Part shown: positions 18,539 through 60,842 of the stretch, piece by piece
Layout: every line of letters begins with the position of its first letter
How positions within the stretch are numbered: position 1 is the first letter of the stretch
Assembly (NCBI RefSeq): GCF_017301735.1
Contig: NZ_CP071090.1
Coordinates: 4,950,001 to 5,014,000, forward strand
Source of the DNA: Pyxidicoccus parkwaysis
GTDB taxonomy: Bacteria; Myxococcota; Myxococcia; Myxococcales; Myxococcaceae
Reading direction: 5' to 3'
Length of the DNA: 64,000 bases
The notes under the pieces: model-generated
Database searches by the model: none
Told to the model about the DNA's origin: nothing
What the model saw: only the letters and a program-made list of their open reading frames with translations
Made by a program: the position numbers and the translations under genes

Positions 18539-20089
18539 TCCTCCACCTGTTGGATGACGTTGGAGTCCAACTACCTCCCGAGTAGCCTCCTCGTGCGGCG
18601 CGGTGCGCACCGCCTCACGAGGGACCTCATGGCGTCTGACGTCTTCAATCCGGCATGCCTGCTCCCCGGGACTCTCATCGGCCCGTGGCGTCTGCTGGAG
18701 CTGCGCGGCAGGGGCTCCTATGGCGTCGTCTTTCGCGCCGTCCCCGACGAGGCGCCAGAAGCCGACGCCGTCGCCCTCAAGCTGGCCCTGCACCTCGAGG
18801 ATGCGCGCTTCGCACGAGAGGCCGAGCTGCTCTCCCGCATCCGCCACCCCGCCGTCCCTCGCCTGCTGGACCATGGCCACTGGCAGCCCCGGCAGACGCT
18901 GTCCTTCCCCTGGCTCGCCATGGAGTGGGTGGATGGCATTTCGCTCTACGAGTGGGCCCTGGCTCAACGCCCCTCTTCCCGGCAGGTGCTTCAGCTTCTC
19001 GCGCGTCTGGCCCGTGCCCTGGACGCCACCCATTCGGCAGGCGGCCTCCACCGTGATGTGAAGGGCGACAACGTCCTTGTCCGCCACTCGGACGCTCAGC
19101 CCTTCCTCACGGACTTCGGCTCCGGACACTACGTGGGCGCAGCCACGCTCACCGGGCCGGCCTTTCCTCCTGGCACCCTCGCCTACCGCTCTCCCGAGGC
19201 GTGGCGCTTCATCCCCCGCTCCGGCAAGATTCCCGCCATCCCGTATTCACCCAGGCCCGCGGATGACCTCTTCGCCCTGGGGGTCACCGCCTACCGACTC
19301 ATCACCGGGAAGTACCCACCGGTGCCCAACCCGGAGGATGAGGAGGCCTGGCTCTGGCTTCCCGAAGAGCTGGCGCGCTGGACGGCGCGAGTCTGCAACG
19401 CTCGCTGCGTTCCGGCGCTGAGCGCGGTGGTGTCCCGGATGCTCTCACTGCGCCCCGAAGCACGAGGCAGTGCGCGGGAGGTGGCCGAAGTGCTAGAGCA
19501 GGCTGCGCGCAGGGCGGGACGCGAGGCGGATGTGCCGCTCTTCACGGGAGAAGAGCCTCGGCCCGCGGGCCTCTTTCCGCGCCCCCAGCACGTCACGGTG
19601 CAGCGCCCTCCCCGCCCGCCCAGGTGGCCCTGGCTCGCGGCCGCTGGCCTCGGAGGTGCGCTGGCGCTGAGCGCCGGGGGGCTCTTGAGCGTGAGTCGCT
19701 CCGCGGCGCCCACGACGTCCCAACTCGCGGAGCAGGAAGAGTCCAGGGATGGCGGCACCGTGGCCGTCGGGGACACCGCGCTGACGGCGCGGGTAGAGCC
19801 AGAGCGAGCCCCCTCCGAGTGGTCACCCATCGCGGTAGATCAGCCACCGAAACCCCTCCCAGGGCAGCAGCGCCCGGACGCCGGTGGCCGCTGTCCCGGC
19901 AAGATGCAGGTGGCATTCAACGGTGGTTGTTGGACGAAGCAGCCCGTGGACCTGAAGGACTGTGGTGAATGGGGTGGCGTTGAATACAGAGGCGCGTGCT
20001 ACACCCCCGCCATGCCTCAGCCACGCCCTGCAACCTCGGGTCCCGCAGAGCGAGACAACAGCCCATAGCCATCTGCGCCAGAGCCCTAC
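18539..20089 (+). repeat. Direct repeat, kinase duplication, copy 1
   Basis: From about 18539 to 20089 the DNA is highly similar to about 39466-41011, in the same orientation. The similarity includes noncoding sequence upstream of the kinase and about 20 bases after its stop, so this is a segmental duplication of one gene with flanks. Edges are judged by eye. Confidence 0.75.
18629..20068 (+). CDS. Membrane-anchored Ser/Thr protein kinase, copy 1
   Basis: A 479-aa Hanks-type kinase. Catalytic features from MASDVF: glycine loop GRGSYGVV (27-34), lysine 51 in ALK, HRDVKGDN (141-148) and DFG (162-164). The activation segment continues to RSPEAW. A single membrane helix lies at 333-355. The C-terminal ~100 residues are extracytoplasmic, with four cysteines in GGRCPGK, NGGCW, LKDCGE and YRGACY, likely a small disulfide domain. 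The start is chosen by GAGG seven bases upstream; an in-frame ATG at 18554 would add 25 residues. The gene is a close paralogue of the one at 39556, and similarity even covers about 90 bases upstream of the start. Its signal input is unknown. Confidence 0.88.
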   Translation: MASDVFNPACLLPGTLIGPWRLLELRGRGSYGVVFRAVPDEAPEADAVALKLALHLEDARFAREAELLSRIRHPAVPRLLDHGHWQPRQTLSFPWLAMEWVDGISLYEWALAQRPSSRQVLQLLARLARALDATHSAGGLHRDVKGDNVLVRHSDAQPFLTDFGSGHYVGAATLTGPAFPPGTLAYRSPEAWRFIPRSGKIPAIPYSPRPADDLFALGVTAYRLITGKYPPVPNPEDEEAWLWLPEELARWTARVCNARCVPALSAVVSRMLSLRPEARGSAREVAEVLEQAARRAGREADVPLFTGEEPRPAGLFPRPQHVTVQRPPRPPRWPWLAAAGLGGALALSAGGLLSVSRSAAPTTSQLAEQEESRDGGTVAVGDTALTARVEPERAPSEWSPIAVDQPPKPLPGQQRPDAGGRCPGKMQVAFNGGCWTKQPVDLKDCGEWGGVEYRGACYTPAMPQPRPATSGPAERDNSP

Positions 20090-39465: not shown

Positions 39466-41011
39466 TTGTCCACCTGCTGGATGACGTTGGAGTCCGACTA
39501 CCTCCCGAGTAGCCTCCTCATGCGGCGCGGTGCGCACCGCCTCACGAGGGACTTCATGGCGTCTGACGTCTTCAATCCCGCTCGCCTGCTCCCAGGAATG
39601 CTCATCGGCCCGTGGCGTCTGCTGGAGCTGCGCGGCAGGGGCTCCTTCGGCATCGTCTTCCGCGCCGTCCACGCGCTGCAGCACGACGCAGAAGCCGTGG
39701 CCCTCAAGCTGGCCGTCAACCTGTGGGATGCTCGCTTCGCGCGTGAGGCCGAGTTGCTCTCCCGCATCCACCACCCCGCCGTCCCTCGCCTGCTGGACCA
39801 TGGCCACTGGCAGCCCCGGCAGACGCTGTCCTTCCCCTGGCTCGTCATGGAGTGGATAGAGGGCCTGCCTCTCTACGAATGGGCCTACGCTCAACGCCCC
39901 TCTTCACGGCAGGTGCTTCAGCTTCTGGCCCGCCTCGCCCGTGCTCTCGACGCCACCCATTCGGCGGGCGGCCTCCACCGCGATGTGAAGGGCGAAAACA
40001 TCCTCGTCCGACTCTCGGACGCTCAGCCCTTCCTCACGGACTTCGGCTCCGGGCACTTCCTGGGGGCAGCCACGCTCACCGCGCCGGCCTTTCCTCCTGG
40101 CACCCTCGCCTACCGCTCCCCCGAGGCGTGGCGCTTCATCCCCCGCTCCGGCAAGATTCCCGCTGTCCCCTATTCACCCAGGTCCGCGGATGACCTCTTC
40201 GCCCTGGGGGTCACCGCCTATCGCCTCATCACCGGGAAGTACCCACCGGTGCCCAACCCGGAGAATGAGGAGGCCTGGCTCTGGCTCCCCGAGGAGCACG
40301 CGCGCTGGACGGCGCGAGTCTGCAACGCTCGCTGCATTCCGGAGCTGAGCGCGCTGGTGTCCCGGATGCTCTCGCTCCGCCCCGATGCACGAGGCAGCGT
40401 GCGGGAGATGGCGGAAGCGCTGGAGCAGGCCGCGCGCAGGGCGGGACGTGAAGCGGATGTGCCGCTCTTCACGGGAGAAGAGCCTCGGCCCGCGGGCCTC
40501 TTTCCCCGCCCCCAGCACGTCACGGTGCAGCGCCCTCCCCGCCCGCCCAGGTTGCCCTGGCTCGCGGCCGCTGGCCTCGGAGGCGCACTGGCGCTGAGCG
40601 CCGCGGGGTTGCTGAGTGTGAGTCGCTCCGAGGAGCCAGCAACACCCCAACTCGCTGAGCAGGAAGAGTCGAAGGACGGCGGCACCGTGGCCGTCGGCGA
40701 CTCTGCGCTGACAGCGCGGGTGGAGCCCGAGCGAGCCCCCTCCGAGTGGTCACCCATCGCGGTTGAGCTGCCACCGAAACCCCTCCCAGGGCAGCAGCGC
40801 TCGGACAGCAGTGGCCGCTGTCCCGGCAAGCTGCAGGTCGCAATCAATGGCGGTTGCTGGCGGAAGCTACCCGTGGACCTGAAGGACTGTGATGCGGCGG
40901 ATAGCTTTGAATACAGGGGCGCGTGCTACCTCCCCGTCCTGGCTCGGGAACGCCCTGCAACCTCGGGCCCCGCGGAGCGAGACGACAGTCCATAACCATC
41001 CGCGCCAGAGC
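39466..41011 (+). repeat. Direct repeat, kinase duplication, copy 2
   Basis: Partner of 18539-20089, same orientation, about 20.9 kb apart. Similarity covers a short upstream noncoding stretch, the whole kinase gene and about 20 bases after its stop, then ends. Confidence 0.75.
39556..40995 (+). CDS. Membrane-anchored Ser/Thr protein kinase, copy 2
   Basis: A 479-aa kinase, the same length as copy 1 and very similar along its whole length, including the extracytoplasmic four-Cys end (GRCPGK, NGGCW, KDCDAADSFEY, YRGACY). Catalytic motifs are intact: GRGSFGIV, VALKLAV, HRDVKGEN, DFGSG. Differences cluster in the loop just after the glycine loop (HALQHDAEA against PDEAPEADA) and in the last 80 residues, which suggests different inputs or targets. 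GAGG precedes ATG 39556, matching copy 1. It follows the haloperoxidase by 200 bases and is convergent with the ADOP permease. Confidence 0.87.
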   Translation: MASDVFNPARLLPGMLIGPWRLLELRGRGSFGIVFRAVHALQHDAEAVALKLAVNLWDARFAREAELLSRIHHPAVPRLLDHGHWQPRQTLSFPWLVMEWIEGLPLYEWAYAQRPSSRQVLQLLARLARALDATHSAGGLHRDVKGENILVRLSDAQPFLTDFGSGHFLGAATLTAPAFPPGTLAYRSPEAWRFIPRSGKIPAVPYSPRSADDLFALGVTAYRLITGKYPPVPNPENEEAWLWLPEEHARWTARVCNARCIPELSALVSRMLSLRPDARGSVREMAEALEQAARRAGREADVPLFTGEEPRPAGLFPRPQHVTVQRPPRPPRLPWLAAAGLGGALALSAAGLLSVSRSEEPATPQLAEQEESKDGGTVAVGDSALTARVEPERAPSEWSPIAVELPPKPLPGQQRSDSSGRCPGKLQVAINGGCWRKLPVDLKDCDAADSFEYRGACYLPVLARERPATSGPAERDDSP

Positions 41012-43469: not shown

Positions 43470-43703
43470 GACGGCTCCAGGTGGAGGGAGCACCGCGGGT
43501 GCGGGCTCACCATGCGGTGCCTGCCATGAGCAAGTCGGATGCCACCCACTCCGGCCCCTGGAACGGCGCGGCCCGAGGGAAAGAGCCGGTGGACGGCGCC
43601 CCGGTATCGGTGTGCCTGACCGGACGTGGGAATGCCGGTCCCACTTCCGGAAGGACAGTCCCCGCGGCACCACGTGAGACCGGGCGGAGACGAACGGTAT
43701 CCT

Positions 43704-46700
43704 TCATGACATGGCGGCATCCGCGCGCTCGATCTGTCGATTGCCCGCGACGTCGAGCACATGAATCCGTCCGGACCGCTCTCCAGCAATGACGACCGAG
43801 CCGTCGCGAGAGATGTCGCACGACAGGACGGCGCTGACCCCGGTGAACGTCGAGAGGAGAGCGCCACTCGCCACATCCCACAGGCGCAGCGTCATGTCCT
43901 CTGACCCGGACACCGCCAATCGACCGTCCTCGGTGATGGCCACCGAGTAGACGGCGCCACGATGTCCACGCAGGACGCGAAGACACGTTCCCGTGTCGAG
44001 ATCCCATACCCGGATCATGCGCCCCTTCGAGCCTGAGATGCCGAAGCGGCCATTGCGGGTGATATCCAGAGCGCGGACGGTCATGGTGTGGCCGTGCAGC
44101 ATCCGTGGGGGCGTCGTCGCGCCCAGTTCCCACAGCCGCACCGCGTACCAGTCGTTCGCTGTCGCGGGCGTAGGGCCCTCCTCGACATCCGCGCCTTTCG
44201 AACGGCTACTCGGCGCGGAAAGTGCCCGTCTCGCTCCCGATGCAAACGCGATGTTGCCGACCAGCGCGATGGAACTACGCGGGTCCTCGCTCGGCGGCTC
44301 GCGGCGTGTGAGCTCCGCGCGCACGGCTGCGTAGAGTTCCCTATCGAAGAGGTCGGTACCGCGCCGGATGAATGGGCCCGCCAACGGCACCTGGACAAGG
44401 GTCTCCAACTCCACCGTGTGAGGGTCCTCGTCTTTGACGCTCAGAAACGCGCGGCGGCACTCATCATCGAGCCGTGCGGTGAACACCGCGGGACGATTCG
44501 GACCTGATGCCGCGGCAGGTCGCGTGAGGTCCCAGAGCACCACGTCGTGCTCGTAATCGCAGCTCGCGGCAAGGGCCCCGTCCGGTGCGATTGCGACGCA
44601 TGAAAACCGGTGCGGATGAGCGTTTGTGTAGGCCGCTGTTGCCTCGGCCCCCGTTGCCCGCACGCCGAGTCGTTCACCCGACGGGTCGAGCAGCAGCGCA
44701 TGGCTGCCCGTCGGTGTCAGTGCCACGACGCCATCCGTCTGCCCGGGCCATCGCGGTGTTGCGACGGGCTCGCCGACGCTCCATGTCTGCAGCGGGCTTC
44801 CGAACACGAGCCGACGGCTGCTGTCGAATGCGACGACGCGTCCACCAAAACCGAGGCCTGAAGCAGACTCAACCCGCCCAGGCAATGCACCCATCAACGC
44901 CCCCGTCGGGAGCTGGCGACACTCCACGGCGGAATCCGTCACGCAGGCAAAACTCGTCCCATCGTCATTGACGGCCAGCGCGTAGACACCGCTGCCGTCC
45001 GGCTCTCGTAGGGTCGCGGATGCATCGTTGCCACCCACAGCGGCGACTCGGCCGTCGTCGAACCCCACGAGCATGCGGTCCCTTGCGGCGATAGGGACGA
45101 TGCTGGTCACACGGACCGTGATTGGGTAGGGCACCGAGCTCGCGTCGGCGAGGTCATACACCTGGATCCCGCTCAGACCCGCAGCGGCGAGCCGTGCTCC
45201 TGGGAGAAACGACATCACGGTGACCCCGCCAGCATCAGCGGCATCGTTGAACGTGCGAAGCAGCCGATGCGCGGTGAGGTCCCAGACCTTGATTGTGCGG
45301 TCGTTGGCCGAATTGCCCGCCGTGGCGAGATAGAGACCATCGGCGGAAAACACCACTGAACGAGGAGTGCCACGGTGGCCGTCGGCTTCGCGCCCCCGGA
45401 ACGTGACCACGACCGAGTCCATTCTGGACAGGCTCGCGGTGCGCGGCCTGAGCCAGGCGGGATGCGCCCAGGCTCGCGCCGCATCCAGCAGCGGTCGCAT
45501 CTCCTCCTGCTCGCTCTCGTCGACCCGGGCAAGCAGTTGGGGCGCGAACTGCGACGGTTCGTGCGCCAGCAGATGCGCGACGCTTCTGCACACGGCAAGC
45601 AGCGTCGTGATGGAACGGTTTCCACTGGAAGAGACAGCCGCGCGATCGAGGTCGAGGATGACTGAAGACACACCCCGCTTCTCCATCTTGCGCAGCAGCC
45701 AGGAGAAGCTGACGAGAAGCCCCGCCCACTCGTCACTCCTATGGGCGCGCTCGAGGTGGTAGGCGAGGTGCTCGAACACGTACGGCTCGTCGCTGTTGGC
45801 CCAGTTGCCACCTGTCGGCGCGGCCAGGGCCGCAAGCAGGCGCTGCTGCACGGACGCCTCCTCCGCGCGAGCCAGGAGAAAATCCCGCACGAGGTCGTGG
45901 ACCAGGAAGGTGTCGCCTGCTCCGAACTGAATCAGCGATCTGTCCGCGAGGTCCTGCACGAGGTCGTCGATGACGATGGGAGCGAACTGCTCGTGCTCCC
46001 ACCACGTGTGAACCACGCGCACCGGTACCGCGGCATCTTCGGGAAACGCCGCGAGGTCGACGAATCGCGCCCGCGTGACTTCGCTGAGATCATCAAACCC
46101 GACCAACAACGCTCGCTCGATTGATTCGTGGGCGTAATCGGGCAACCGGTGCGCGATGCTCGACGGATCGGCCGACTTCAGCCTGGCGAGCGCCTGGTCC
46201 CATCGCGGCGGCGTGTCTGGCCTTCTTCGTCGCAGCATCGCGCCGATCATCGAAATGGCGAGCGGCAGCCTCCCGCATTCCTTCACGATCTCGGCGGCGA
46301 CATCCGGCAGCGCCTCTACCGGGAGTCCGACCCAGCCTGCCAGCAGCTTCAGCGACTCGTCCTCGTTCAGCTCATCGATGTGCACTTCATGGACGCCCGA
46401 CGAAGCGAACAAGCGGCGTTTCTGGCTCGTGATCAGAATGCGCACATCACGCGAAGCAGCCGTGTGGAGCGCTTCAACAATCTCCACGGACCACACGTCG
46501 TCGAGGACGAGCAGACAGCGCTTGTCGGCGAGGACGACGCTCAAGCGGACCTTGGCACTTGGGTCAGTCTCATAGCTTTGCGCATTCGAGTCGCCGAGCG
46601 TCGTACCGATGGCGCGCAGGGTTTCAAGCACATTGGGGCGTCGTCCGATGAGAAGCCAGAACACGCCGTCGGGAAATGACCGAAGGACATCAGGCGCGGT

Positions 46701-47306
46701 CACCAATGCCGCGGCGAGGACGCTCTTGCCCGCGCCGCTCATGCCGGTCGCGACGGTGATGCGCTGATCAGGCTCCAGCTCGATGGGCCTGTATGCATCC
46801 ACGAGCACGCGTTTGCGAAGCTGGTCGAGTTGCTGGTTTCGTTCAATGAACGGCGATGGCCTGCGCGGAACGCCGAAGGGCTTGCCCATGGGGGCGACCG
46901 GAGTCCGAACGAGGCGCAGGACCGATGAAAACGCGGCGCCTTCGGGGACCGCCTCCGTGCAGTCCTCACAGTGAAGCGCCGACACGGCTTCGGGGACGTC
47001 CTTGTAGGTCCCAAGCCGCAGAATCGGAGTGACGACAGTGCCGCGCGTCAGCGCGTGGCGCCACTCGGCCTCGACGTATGCCGAGTGCCGAGCACGGGGG
47101 CCGATGACCAGCAACACCCGGTCGGCCGACTCAATCGCGCGCCGGATTTCCTGGAGGAAGGTGGTGCCGCGGCTCTGCATGGCTGCGCGGTCCCACCACA
47201 CCTGTACGCCCTGCTCGCAGAGGAAGTCATGGAGGCGCTTGACAAACGGCTCATCGTCATCGCGCGCGTACGAGATGAAGACGTCCCAGCGGTCTGGGGC
47301 AGCCAT
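43704..47306 (-). CDS. TIR/NB-ARC/WD40 STAND protein (NLR-like)
   Basis: A 1200-aa single-chain STAND protein. TIR domain, residues 6-135: RWDVFISYARDDDEPF, then SAYVEAEW with Glu81 in the place of the catalytic NADase Glu. NB-ARC, ~150-480: P-loop GMSGAGKS (188-195), Walker B LLVLDD (265-270), sensor-like ILITSQ, GRLPLA (345-350), and LVHD (468-471) in the MHD position. A helical linker follows, then a WD40 propeller from ~640 to the end (for example RTIKVWDLTAH, LRGHRGAVYSVAITEDGRL, SGSEDMTLRLWDVASG). The order equals plant TNL and APAF-1 logic. GAGGGG lies five bases before ATG 47306. Known: bacterial TIR-STAND proteins act in phage defence through NAD+ loss. The role here is inference. 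Confidence 0.9.
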   Translation of the reverse strand: MAAPDRWDVFISYARDDDEPFVKRLHDFLCEQGVQVWWDRAAMQSRGTTFLQEIRRAIESADRVLLVIGPRARHSAYVEAEWRHALTRGTVVTPILRLGTYKDVPEAVSALHCEDCTEAVPEGAAFSSVLRLVRTPVAPMGKPFGVPRRPSPFIERNQQLDQLRKRVLVDAYRPIELEPDQRITVATGMSGAGKSVLAAALVTAPDVLRSFPDGVFWLLIGRRPNVLETLRAIGTTLGDSNAQSYETDPSAKVRLSVVLADKRCLLVLDDVWSVEIVEALHTAASRDVRILITSQKRRLFASSGVHEVHIDELNEDESLKLLAGWVGLPVEALPDVAAEIVKECGRLPLAISMIGAMLRRRRPDTPPRWDQALARLKSADPSSIAHRLPDYAHESIERALLVGFDDLSEVTRARFVDLAAFPEDAAVPVRVVHTWWEHEQFAPIVIDDLVQDLADRSLIQFGAGDTFLVHDLVRDFLLARAEEASVQQRLLAALAAPTGGNWANSDEPYVFEHLAYHLERAHRSDEWAGLLVSFSWLLRKMEKRGVSSVILDLDRAAVSSSGNRSITTLLAVCRSVAHLLAHEPSQFAPQLLARVDESEQEEMRPLLDAARAWAHPAWLRPRTASLSRMDSVVVTFRGREADGHRGTPRSVVFSADGLYLATAGNSANDRTIKVWDLTAHRLLRTFNDAADAGGVTVMSFLPGARLAAAGLSGIQVYDLADASSVPYPITVRVTSIVPIAARDRMLVGFDDGRVAAVGGNDASATLREPDGSGVYALAVNDDGTSFACVTDSAVECRQLPTGALMGALPGRVESASGLGFGGRVVAFDSSRRLVFGSPLQTWSVGEPVATPRWPGQTDGVVALTPTGSHALLLDPSGERLGVRATGAEATAAYTNAHPHRFSCVAIAPDGALAASCDYEHDVVLWDLTRPAAASGPNRPAVFTARLDDECRRAFLSVKDEDPHTVELETLVQVPLAGPFIRRGTDLFDRELYAAVRAELTRREPPSEDPRSSIALVGNIAFASGARRALSAPSSRSKGADVEEGPTPATANDWYAVRLWELGATTPPRMLHGHTMTVRALDITRNGRFGISGSKGRMIRVWDLDTGTCLRVLRGHRGAVYSVAITEDGRLAVSGSEDMTLRLWDVASGALLSTFTGVSAVLSCDISRDGSVVIAGERSGRIHVLDVAGNRQIERADAAMS

Positions 47307-47516
47307 ACGACCCCTCTTTCGCGTCGAGAAGGACGAATTCTTCGAAGCATATAGAAGATGAAGCGGCCGGCCAGTCACGAGCGTGGAGGGAGCCCACCGG
47401 GCCTTGGAGCGCAGCCGCGCGAAAAAGGGGGTTCCCAAAAATAAAGGGTCGCCCGGTCTTCAAGACGTGAGCGCCTCGCAGCCCGGGGGCCTCTCTCTAG
47501 AAAACCGGAGTCCCAC

Positions 47517-58847: not shown

Positions 58848-59603
58848 TCAAGGCGCCGAGCGCCCGCCGATCTCCGGGAAGCGCTCATAGGCCCGCTTCA
58901 GCGCGTCCAGGTGGGCGGGGTTGTCCAGGTCGAGCGGAGCATCAGTGAGCTTCACAACCCACCCGCCCGACGCCGTGTGCCGCGCCCGTGAAAGCAGGTC
59001 CGCGTCGCGAGAGGGGTCCGGGAACCCGACGACCTGCGCGGTAGCGGCAGACCAATAGTTCAGCCACCCGAGGAACCAGGGAATCTCAGGCGCGAGGAGT
59101 TTTTCTGGCAGGTTGAGCATGGGAAGCCCACGGGGAGAGCACTCTGGTCCATGAGGCGATCGGCGAAACTGCTGCGCGACTTCCGAGCCGTAACCATACG
59201 GCGACGCATGCCCCCAGAACGAGCGCGCCCCCTCCGCCACGCCCTCAAGCAAAGCCGCCGCTGCCGCGATCACGGGCTCGTCCAGTGGCAGTTCTGCATG
59301 CACTTCAGACAGGGACCGACCGCCTGGGCTGAGGAGCCCAGGTCTTCCCCTCCCGTTAATCGTCGCGGGGTAACTCTCGTCCCCGTTGCACAGAAGAGGG
59401 AATCTCCCGTCCTGCGTCCTTTCCGCGAGCCACGCATCGCGCTGCGGCAATGCGATGGGGCGCCCTCCTTTGCCTACTTCCCACTCCAGGCGCAGGCCGG
59501 GGAGTGCCTTTTCCATCCCATGGACGACAGCGAGCGTGCGGCCGTCTTTGCCTACGAGCGCAGGCGCGTAGACGATGAGGGTGAGGGCTTTACGCCTGGT
59601 CAT
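58848..59603 (-). CDS. DUF5953 family immunity protein
   Basis: A 251-aa cytosolic protein. The start at ATG 59603 overlaps the upstream toxin stop (ATGA); a GTG three codons earlier is an alternative. Features include LTLIVYAPALVGKDGRTLAV near the start, RFPLLCNGDESYPATI, and IPWFLGWLNYWSAATAQ, a Trp/Asn/Tyr/Trp run known from Imm52-like/DUF5953 proteins. DUF5953 genes usually follow DUF6310 genes in myxobacteria, as here. The likely job is to bind and block the DUF6310 toxin in the cytoplasm; this comes from gene order and coupling, not from biochemistry. Confidence 0.75.
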   Translation of the reverse strand: MTRRKALTLIVYAPALVGKDGRTLAVVHGMEKALPGLRLEWEVGKGGRPIALPQRDAWLAERTQDGRFPLLCNGDESYPATINGRGRPGLLSPGGRSLSEVHAELPLDEPVIAAAAALLEGVAEGARSFWGHASPYGYGSEVAQQFRRSPHGPECSPRGLPMLNLPEKLLAPEIPWFLGWLNYWSAATAQVVGFPDPSRDADLLSRARHTASGGWVVKLTDAPLDLDNPAHLDALKRAYERFPEIGGRSAP

Positions 59604-60505
59604 CGTTTGCACCCCGTGACGACGACATTAAGTGAGAAATCCGCTTCGATCAGCGCGTCTTTGTGCACTTGGGTGCTCACCCCAATGACGAAGTCATATC
59701 CACATGCCGCCGCAGCAGCTCGCTCCCTTTGTATTTGCTCCAACTCCTTCTCAATCTCCCGCCTCCGGATAAAGTCAGAATATGTGTCAAATCGATGGGT
59801 CTTGATCTCCCACAGCACGCGCACGCCAACTTGCAGTGCATCGAATCGCTCACCGTTCACGGACACGTCCATGCCGGGATAACGGTTAGGCGGGAACTTA
59901 TCGGCGCACTCGTTATGCGGGTCATCTTCGCCTGCGTGCCGCACCGGGATGGGCTCGCACTCCGGGCGGCGCGGGTTGGAGTCTGTCGGCACCGGGGGAG
60001 ACCAATCCTGCCCTGATGGCTCGGGCTTGCGTTGTCGTTTCGCTGAGGGTTCCTGCGGGCCGGGCTTCGTTTGGGGCGCGGGCTCGACTTCCTCCCGGCT
60101 ATTCCCTCTCAGTTCATACGCATCCAGCGCTTCCTTGATGACGACTCCCACCACCACCACGCCAACGACGATCACCGCGCCCACAACGATCTCGGGAGCA
60201 GCCAAGACACAGAGGCCGAAGCCCAAGGCAGCCGCGCCCGCCGACGCGACCGCGCATCTTCTCGTCGGGTCGTTGAACCGGATCCGGTCATGATCGAGGG
60301 CTGCAAAGCACCGCTCCGCTAACACGGGCCAAGGCTGGGACGCCTCCCGGACAGCGCACCGTCCCCCGTCCGTCCACGGCAGCGTCGCCGCGCGCTGGAG
60401 GTTGGCGATCCTCGGGTTCCGGGACGCGCGCTCTCTCGGGCTCGGTGCCGACGTAGCGCAGGCCGAGAGAAGCAACAGGAGTGCGATGCAGGTTCGGAGA
60501 TGCAC
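59600..60505 (-). CDS. DUF6310/SitA5-type toxin lipoprotein
   Basis: A 301-aa lipoprotein starting at GTG 60505 (AGGA upstream), with lipobox LSAC, Cys16. Hydrophobic segments (about 86-124) may insert in membrane and help entry. A Pro/Lys/Glu linker follows. The C-terminal domain (~185-301) has FDAL, then VLWEIKTHRFD with Glu233-x-Lys235, a PD-(D/E)XK nuclease-like core, and a following helix EKELEQIQRERAAAAACGYD. Known: SitA5/DUF6310 lipoproteins are cell-to-cell transferred toxins of myxobacteria. Its stop overlaps the immunity start. Upstream in-frame codons extend openly to 60780 but are treated separately. Confidence 0.77.
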   Translation of the reverse strand: MHLRTCIALLLLLSACATSAPSPRERASRNPRIANLQRAATLPWTDGGRCAVREASQPWPVLAERCFAALDHDRIRFNDPTRRCAVASAGAAALGFGLCVLAAPEIVVGAVIVVGVVVVGVVIKEALDAYELRGNSREEVEPAPQTKPGPQEPSAKRQRKPEPSGQDWSPPVPTDSNPRRPECEPIPVRHAGEDDPHNECADKFPPNRYPGMDVSVNGERFDALQVGVRVLWEIKTHRFDTYSDFIRRREIEKELEQIQRERAAAAACGYDFVIGVSTQVHKDALIEADFSLNVVVTGCKR

Positions 60506-60842
60506 GGCCACGTCCTGACGGAAGGGGGGGCCCGCCACGCTCGACAGCGAGAGTGCCCGGAGCGCGCCCGAGTTTGCCAGCGGGGGCTTCAAGAGGGCCA
60601 GAACCGAGCGCATCGGGTCCGACCTGCCGCAACTCAGCGGTACACCTTTTCCGCCCCAGATGAACGCGCCCACGACGAGCGGCGCGCTGTTGGCCGCGAC
60701 GTGCCCCGTCGGCATCAGGTACGCGACGAGCAGCTCGTTTTCCCAGCCGCCCGGCTTTCCCTTCATCCAGTCAGGGTCGAGCGTGCGCCCCGCCCCGACC
60801 GCGATTGCCTGACAGTTACCTTCGCGGTGTCACGCCGTCGGG
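60506..60842 (-). other. In-phase open stretch upstream of the toxin
   Basis: No separate gene is assigned. The toxin frame stays open upstream to about 60795 and reads GRTLDPDWMKGKPGGWENEL, LLVAYLMPTGHVAANSAPLV and FIWGGKGVPLSCGRSDP, which look protein-like. It may be the end of another gene fused in frame, possibly phage-derived or a lost helper gene. No lipid signal or start signal supports a longer toxin. Confidence 0.4.

Follow-up and report, generated by a model that had tools for sequence, protein, structure and literature searches.

The question raised by this locus is whether one long minus-strand gene of Pyxidicoccus parkwaysis encodes a complete sensor and effector in a single chain, and to which known cell-death proteins such a chain would be related. 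The gene lies within the window, that is, the whole stretch of 64,000 nucleotides analysed, and runs from an ATG at 47306 to 43704, giving a protein of 1200 aa. The frame is open further upstream, to a TTG at 47438, while the ATG is preceded at a gap of 4 nt by a Shine-Dalgarno-like AGAGGGG, in agreement with the 1200 aa length. Many stops occur on the plus strand at the same coordinates, and GC content by codon position (0.70/0.51/0.77) fits a coding gene, GC3 being 0.77 here versus 0.81-0.94 in the nearest genes. The first-pass annotation, made from the DNA letters alone, had described a TIR/NB-ARC/WD40 protein encoded by a single gene. This is confirmed by Pfam, whose curated cut-offs served as the criterion for domain calls: TIR_2, NB-ARC and WD40 each exceed them and are therefore not chance matches. 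Glu81, the P-loop, Walker B, GRLPLA and LVHD were likewise all recovered where that annotation had placed them (Table 1). The 13.2 Mb genome, a single contig, holds one full copy of the gene.

Table 1. Features of the gene and its surroundings, in window coordinates
Feature	Position	Strand	Evidence
Whole gene: TIR / NB-ARC / winged-helix / APAF-1-type helical / WD40	43704..47306	-	1200 aa, Pfam, motifs
Shine-Dalgarno-like AGAGGGG	47311..47317	-	sequence, 4 nt before ATG
TIR_2 domain, residues 9-118	46953..47282	-	Pfam 2.2e-20
Glu81, catalytic-type glutamate (SAYVEAEW)	47064..47066	-	alignment
NB-ARC domain, residues 181-402	46101..46766	-	Pfam 5.4e-30
P-loop GMSGAGKS, residues 188-195	46722..46745	-	motif reading, alignment
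Walker B LLVLDD, residues 265-270	46497..46514	-	motif reading, alignment
Gln295, sensor-1 position	46422..46424	-	alignment to 12 relatives and Apaf-1
GRLPLA (GxP motif), residues 345-350	46257..46274	-	motif reading, alignment
LVHD (MHD-type motif, winged-helix domain), residues 468-471	45894..45905	-	motif reading, alignment
APAF-1-type helical domain (PF17908), residues 504-585	45552..45797	-	34.2 bits, cut-off 22.8
WD40 propeller region, residues about 628-1191	43734..45425	-	Pfam WD40 4.1e-34; propeller structure matches
Segment without congener counterpart	43655..47420	.	DNA homology ends

We lean towards reading the protein as an Apaf-1-like sensor for cell suicide or immunity that is encoded by one gene and has a TIR as its effector. 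The anatomy is observed, whereas the cycle is proposed from what is established for APAF-1 and for TIR proteins. At rest, the WD40 propeller would be folded back on NB-ARC, keeping the protein autoinhibited in a closed, ADP-bound state. The propeller would then bind a ligand, for which a protein from a phage or another foreign source is the likeliest candidate (the first-pass annotation had proposed a phage- or rival-derived molecule as the putative trigger), upon which NB-ARC would exchange its nucleotide, open and assemble into an oligomeric wheel. The N-terminal TIRs clustered in this way would hydrolyse NAD+ by means of Glu81, and loss of NAD+ would stop or kill the infected cell, with defence as the probable benefit.

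The effector end of this scheme is represented by a TIR in which Glu81 stands in an EAEW motif (residues 79-82), a position at which 14 of 15 aligned TIRs have glutamate. This supports the earlier description of a bacterial NLR- or STAND-type sensor-effector with a catalytic-type TIR glutamate. When the TIR alone was compared with solved structures the matches were bacterial TIRs, including the NAD(+) hydrolase AbTIR. The TIR fold and the catalytic glutamate of TIR NADases are both present, and NAD+ hydrolysis is predicted from them. Alternatively, the TIR could make an ADP-ribose-type signal for a separate, distant effector, as in Thoeris, instead of depleting NAD+; ADP-ribose and cyclic derivatives are known TIR products (PMC7159879), and weak matches to the ThsB and ThcB4 Thoeris models are observed. 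The Thoeris match, however, involves only the TIR and scores 30.5 against an NCBIfam cut-off of 220 bits, and no ThsA or other partner gene lies next door, the adjoining genes being an ADOP-family permease and a gene without a Pfam match. We consider such signalling quite improbable. The genome encodes 17 TIR_2 domains and two NB-ARC proteins, and in a scan of six further long TIR proteins, three carry TPRs (one also NB-ARC) and two carry WD40. With three TIR+WD40 and three TIR+TPR proteins in this genome, and the same domain order also in a Rhizobium plasmid and in Anaerolineales, the first-pass view that TIR and WD40 in one chain is the less usual pairing does not hold.

The central region contains the P-loop, Walker B, GxP and MHD-type motifs, aligned with those of 12 relatives, of a STAND / NB-ARC (AP-ATPase) protein, a class on which Leipe and others reportedly published early work in 2004. 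Between NB-ARC and WD40 lies a helical domain of the APAF-1 type (2.9e-8), which was recovered again in the genome-wide search and which is a mark of APAF-1-like proteins. In comparison with solved structures, residues 131-610 match APAF-1 first (1.9e-36, 129 bits, aligned residues 145-551), the best plant NLR reaching 77 bits and others scoring lower. The sensor-1 position is altered, with Gln295 in a TSQ sequence in place of the usual TTR motif; Arg is present in 12 of 12 relatives aligned, and Arg265 of APAF-1 has been named sensor I (PMC5050015). A sensor-1 arginine is a usual but not strictly defining trait of STAND / NB-ARC proteins, and Gln295 is one residue, leaving the NB-ARC domain match not in doubt. 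Its presence suggests that nucleotide sensing may be altered, which counts against an Apaf-1-like switch. Taken further, the same residue and a long tree branch (1.27) would fit a STAND protein that has degenerated or become inactive, with a nucleotide switch that has ceased to function in the normal way. Against this, the frame is open for 1200 codons with a coding-type GC bias by codon position, and the P-loop, Walker B, GxP and HD motifs and the TIR glutamate are all intact, and we regard degeneration as highly improbable.

Structure models cover the sensor end as well. An AlphaFold model made from ten sequences has a mean pLDDT of 66 and a pTM of 0.47, with the part from TIR to helical domain mostly at 70-92 and residues 831-1052 below 50; modelled separately, the C-terminal half has a pLDDT of 57. 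The top Foldseek match of the model is full-length Apaf-1 (1.8e-40), and VIA-align identifies an eight-blade-like WD40 ring (Z up to 38.9, rmsd 2.3-2.7) to which 631-830 and 1053-1186 contribute ~320 residues. The predicted propeller fold is thus well supported. Of the 7- and 8-blade pair found in APAF-1, one 8-blade-like ring is modelled, the stretch 831-1052 being of low pLDDT. This stretch of the WD40 half, the APAF-1 helical domain at 504-585 and the replacement of the sensor-1 arginine by Q295 had all been missed in the first-pass annotation.

The WD40 repeats of the gene are diverged, with no tandem repeats at the DNA level and 13 of 30 residues identical in the best 30-aa pair. Tandem WD40 repeats are likewise absent from the Rhizobium TIR/NB-ARC/WD40 gene, a looser repeat array is present in the Anaerolineales protein (L016), and two relatives of the same chassis have 12-13 near-identical tandem WD40 units of 126 bp (90-92% match). 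In the fungal HET-NACHT-WD40 (HNWD) genes, tandem WD40 repeats go with concerted evolution and allele-specific recognition (PMC12222747). The absence of such repeats suggests that the propeller ligand would be fixed rather than fast-changing. A diverged, repeat-free WD40 region is also unlike rapidly diversifying sensors, which counts against an immune sensor. HNWD proteins such as HET-E and HET-D nevertheless supply a further candidate function, recognition of non-self between strains of a multicellular bacterium. They share the logic of a TIR-related HET effector, a NOD and a WD40 sensor leading to cell death (PMC12222747, PMC12881547), and the present gene is strain- or species-specific as this function would allow. 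HNWD repeats are, however, more than 80% identical, whereas the highly identical tandem WD40 repeats of an HNWD-type diversifying receptor are not found in this gene, and the fungal ATPase is NACHT rather than NB-ARC. Non-self recognition of this type appears very improbable.

The gene is distributed as an accessory gene. No match was found at 1e-60 in 60 relatives, of which 26 are congeners, with only the best candidates per genome scored, such that a distant copy could be missed; in a search of 195 genomes of the phylum at 1e-25, none apart from this one matched residues 1-602, again with only the best candidates per genome scored. In DNA comparisons, among the matches listed, congeners cover the flanks and never the gene. 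Left-side homology ends at 43652-43654 and right-side homology begins at 47421-47427 (five congeners), placing the breaks in synteny within 50-120 bp of each gene end. The two flanks are far apart in one congener (27 kb and 11.01 Mb), and in congeners the right flank runs on in its own conserved order. The gene sits alone at a synteny breakpoint. A housekeeping role is rejected, the gene having been found in none of the 26 congeners, and the expectation that this is not a conserved housekeeping orthologue stands.

This distribution bears on a reading in which the same switch answers an internal trigger, making the protein a stress or developmental death sensor and not an anti-phage device. APAF-1 senses cytochrome c, and the closest kinship of the protein is to APAF-1; moreover, a diverged propeller without diversifying repeats is more in keeping with a fixed ligand than with an arms race, in contrast to the repeat-bearing relatives on this chassis. 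Congeners should however have retained a gene for development or for a core stress response, and this gene was found in 0 of 26. An internal trigger is in our estimate distinctly unlikely.

Several results count against defence, the benefit assumed in the preferred immune-sensor reading. No related locus was found in phage records or viral contigs, and there is therefore no sign of phage-borne spread. No defence island surrounds the gene: besides the ADOP-family permease, the neighbours include Ser/Thr kinases, an M17 aminopeptidase, a bestrophin-like protein and a pirin, and the PADLOC matches of the neighbours are to general Ser/Thr kinase models only. The TIR/NB-ARC/WD40 protein itself fits none of the system models of PADLOC or NCBIfam, weak TIR matches being the only ones obtained. 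The kinase at 39466-40995, which matches mad6/PD-T4-6, was rejected as a MADS component, scoring 97.5 against the NCBIfam MADS6 cut-off of 460 and having many close paralogues elsewhere in the genome.

The occurrence of relatives on plasmids favours the proposed immune-sensor reading, as do the lack of the gene in congeners, the synteny breaks on either side of it and its GC3. Plasmid pRL22b6 of Rhizobium leguminosarum encodes a 1215-aa protein of the same domain order (WP_166478692.1), which shows about 25-28% identity along most of the chain and whose gene adjoins an 8xMP membrane-protein gene, and the Anaerolineales MAG L016 encodes a 1279-aa TIR/NB-ARC/WD40 protein among several TIR/NB-ARC paralogues. 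Both share the order of TIR, NB-ARC and WD40 and the conserved glutamate, but they are only about 24-30% identical and belong to another branch of the NB-ARC tree. By score (217 bits) and tree path the nearest bacterial chassis is the CHAT/NB-ARC/APAF1_C/WD40 protein of Acaryochloris plasmids pMB04 and pMB06, in which the effector is CHAT and a CHAT-TIR protein is encoded by a separate gene just downstream. The NB-ARC/APAF1_C/WD40 chassis carries CHAT in Acaryochloris (L013) and L119, Trypsin_2 in L063, PNP in L120, EAD4 in Leptolyngbya (L015), TIR again in L117, and weak EAD10/NNH2-like matches in L115, L116 and L126. Such exchange of effector or adaptor modules at one N-terminal place is as expected of a sensor-effector. 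PF17908 itself is sparse, occurring in 15 of 350 genomes of a Chloroflexota sample, 2 of 296 genomes sampled around Lentzea and, with this genome counted, 2 of 37 near relatives.

A tree of the NB-ARC-to-helical region from 21 proteins, and a second with long rows removed, group the protein with APAF-1, Acaryochloris and Anaerolineae sequences and not with other bacterial NB-ARCs (support 94/96; 97/95 in the second tree, a 10-row group), as an APAF-1-like protein should. The TIR proteins of Rhizobium, L016, L059 and L114 fall in a separate group. Constraining all TIR-bearing chassis to one clade is rejected (p-AU 1e-54), as is placing the protein in one clade with its architectural look-alikes (p-AU 1.4e-13), indicating more than one event in which a TIR was added to the chassis or replaced there. 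A sister pair of the protein and APAF-1 is not claimed: support falls from 95/93 to 85/85, both branches are long, the match to APAF-1 is stronger for another Anaerolineae protein, L063 (165 vs 125 bits), and rejection of the alternative is only marginal (p 0.032).

Animal APAF-1 is built of CARD, NB-ARC, WHD, a helical HD2 and WD40 propellers of 7 and 8 blades. The protein shares with it the domain order, the helical PF17908, the WD40 C-terminus, the best solved-structure match and the tree group, and differs in having TIR_2 for CARD, Gln295 for Arg265 and a bacterial host. On its sequence it is best classed as APAF-1-like and not as an APAF-1 orthologue, its N-terminus being TIR_2 and not the CARD that goes with caspase recruitment. 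TEP1/NWD1 and Swarozyc proteins also have a TIR-like NADase before a STAND ATPase, an APAF-1-like helical domain and, in TEP1, WD40 (PMC13174449), with DUF4062 and NACHT in place of TIR_2 and NB-ARC. The tripartite logic of effector, STAND and sensor is shared with the anti-phage Avs and bNACHT proteins (PMC10907252), whereas the NTPase here is NB-ARC and the sensor WD40; no Avs or NACHT model is among the 11 PADLOC matches up to E 0.01.

The first-pass annotation had proposed an undescribed system, which is not upheld, as TIR fused to AP-ATPases has already been described in multicellular bacteria (PMC7159879). The general kind is known and the architecture is not new; what is new is an isolated member of the APAF-1 branch with a TIR and an unusual sensor-1 residue, and no experimental description of a TIR-armed member of this branch was found in the literature consulted, although the bacterial ancestry of the cell-death wheels of eukaryotes is widely discussed. 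More tentatively, and on balance unlikely, the protein may be a bacterial NADase apoptosome: it would belong to a bacterial APAF-1 branch with exchangeable death effectors (TIR, CHAT, trypsin), would itself be one of the bacterial lineages nearest to animal APAF-1, and would form a wheel that clusters TIRs with no recruitment of caspases. If the protein assembles and burns NAD+, the gene would offer a compact single-gene system for studying an APAF-1-type switch in bacteria, and would show that switch to be a chassis for varied bacterial death effectors.

The P. parkwaysis genome encodes a second TIR/NB-ARC protein, in which TPRs replace the WD40 domain (L083). In another of its proteins (L085), WD40 is N-terminal, a Ras-like GTPase central and TIR C-terminal, an order that is the inverse of the main TIR/NB-ARC/WD40 protein (window 43704-47306). 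A TIR-TPR gene (L087) immediately adjoins a gene with a leucine-rich repeat-like start.

The TEP1/NPHP3 layout has a bacterial look-alike in a Chloroflexota protein (L122), which combines DUF4062, an AAA/NPHP3-like NTPase and a match to the APAF-1-type helical domain (APAF1_C). In L114, TIR and NB-ARC are split across frames, perhaps reflecting a frameshift or a broken gene. A CHAT-TIR gene is located downstream of the CHAT/NB-ARC/APAF1_C/WD40 locus on both Acaryochloris plasmids (L013 and L014); in L014 the annotation assigns the CHAT part and the NB-ARC part a gene each, and 13 near-identical units make up the WD40 array. A gap of 1 base separates the Rhizobium TIR/NB-ARC/WD40 gene from the downstream 8xMP gene, and the two perhaps represent a two-gene version.

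Within the window, the 39466-40995 kinase has numerous further copies in the P. parkwaysis genome, at ~79-94% DNA identity, and congeners also hold many copies.

Coordinates of related loci, other TIR proteins and additional window genes
Feature	Location	Strand	Remark
TIR/NB-ARC protein with TPRs	L083:2319-5165	+	P. parkwaysis, ~6.23 Mb
WD40/Ras-like GTPase/TIR protein	L085:3413-6523	-	P. parkwaysis, ~12.06 Mb
TIR-TPR protein	L087:2946-8717	-	P. parkwaysis, ~12.97 Mb
DUF4062/NTPase/APAF1_C protein	L122:3-4568	-	Chloroflexota
Single chassis, TIR and NB-ARC split	L114:2915-4758	+	Two overlapping frames
CHAT/NB-ARC/APAF1_C/WD40 locus, then CHAT-TIR gene	L013:4380-7974	+	Acaryochloris plasmid
8xMP membrane-protein gene	L012:9602-10060	+	3' of Rhizobium TIR/NB-ARC/WD40 gene
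Ser/Thr kinase gene	window 39466-40995	+	Strongly amplified family
Ser/Thr kinase gene	window 18554-20068	+	Same amplified family
DUF5953 and DUF6310 pair, overlapping	window 58848-60766	-	Both of unknown function
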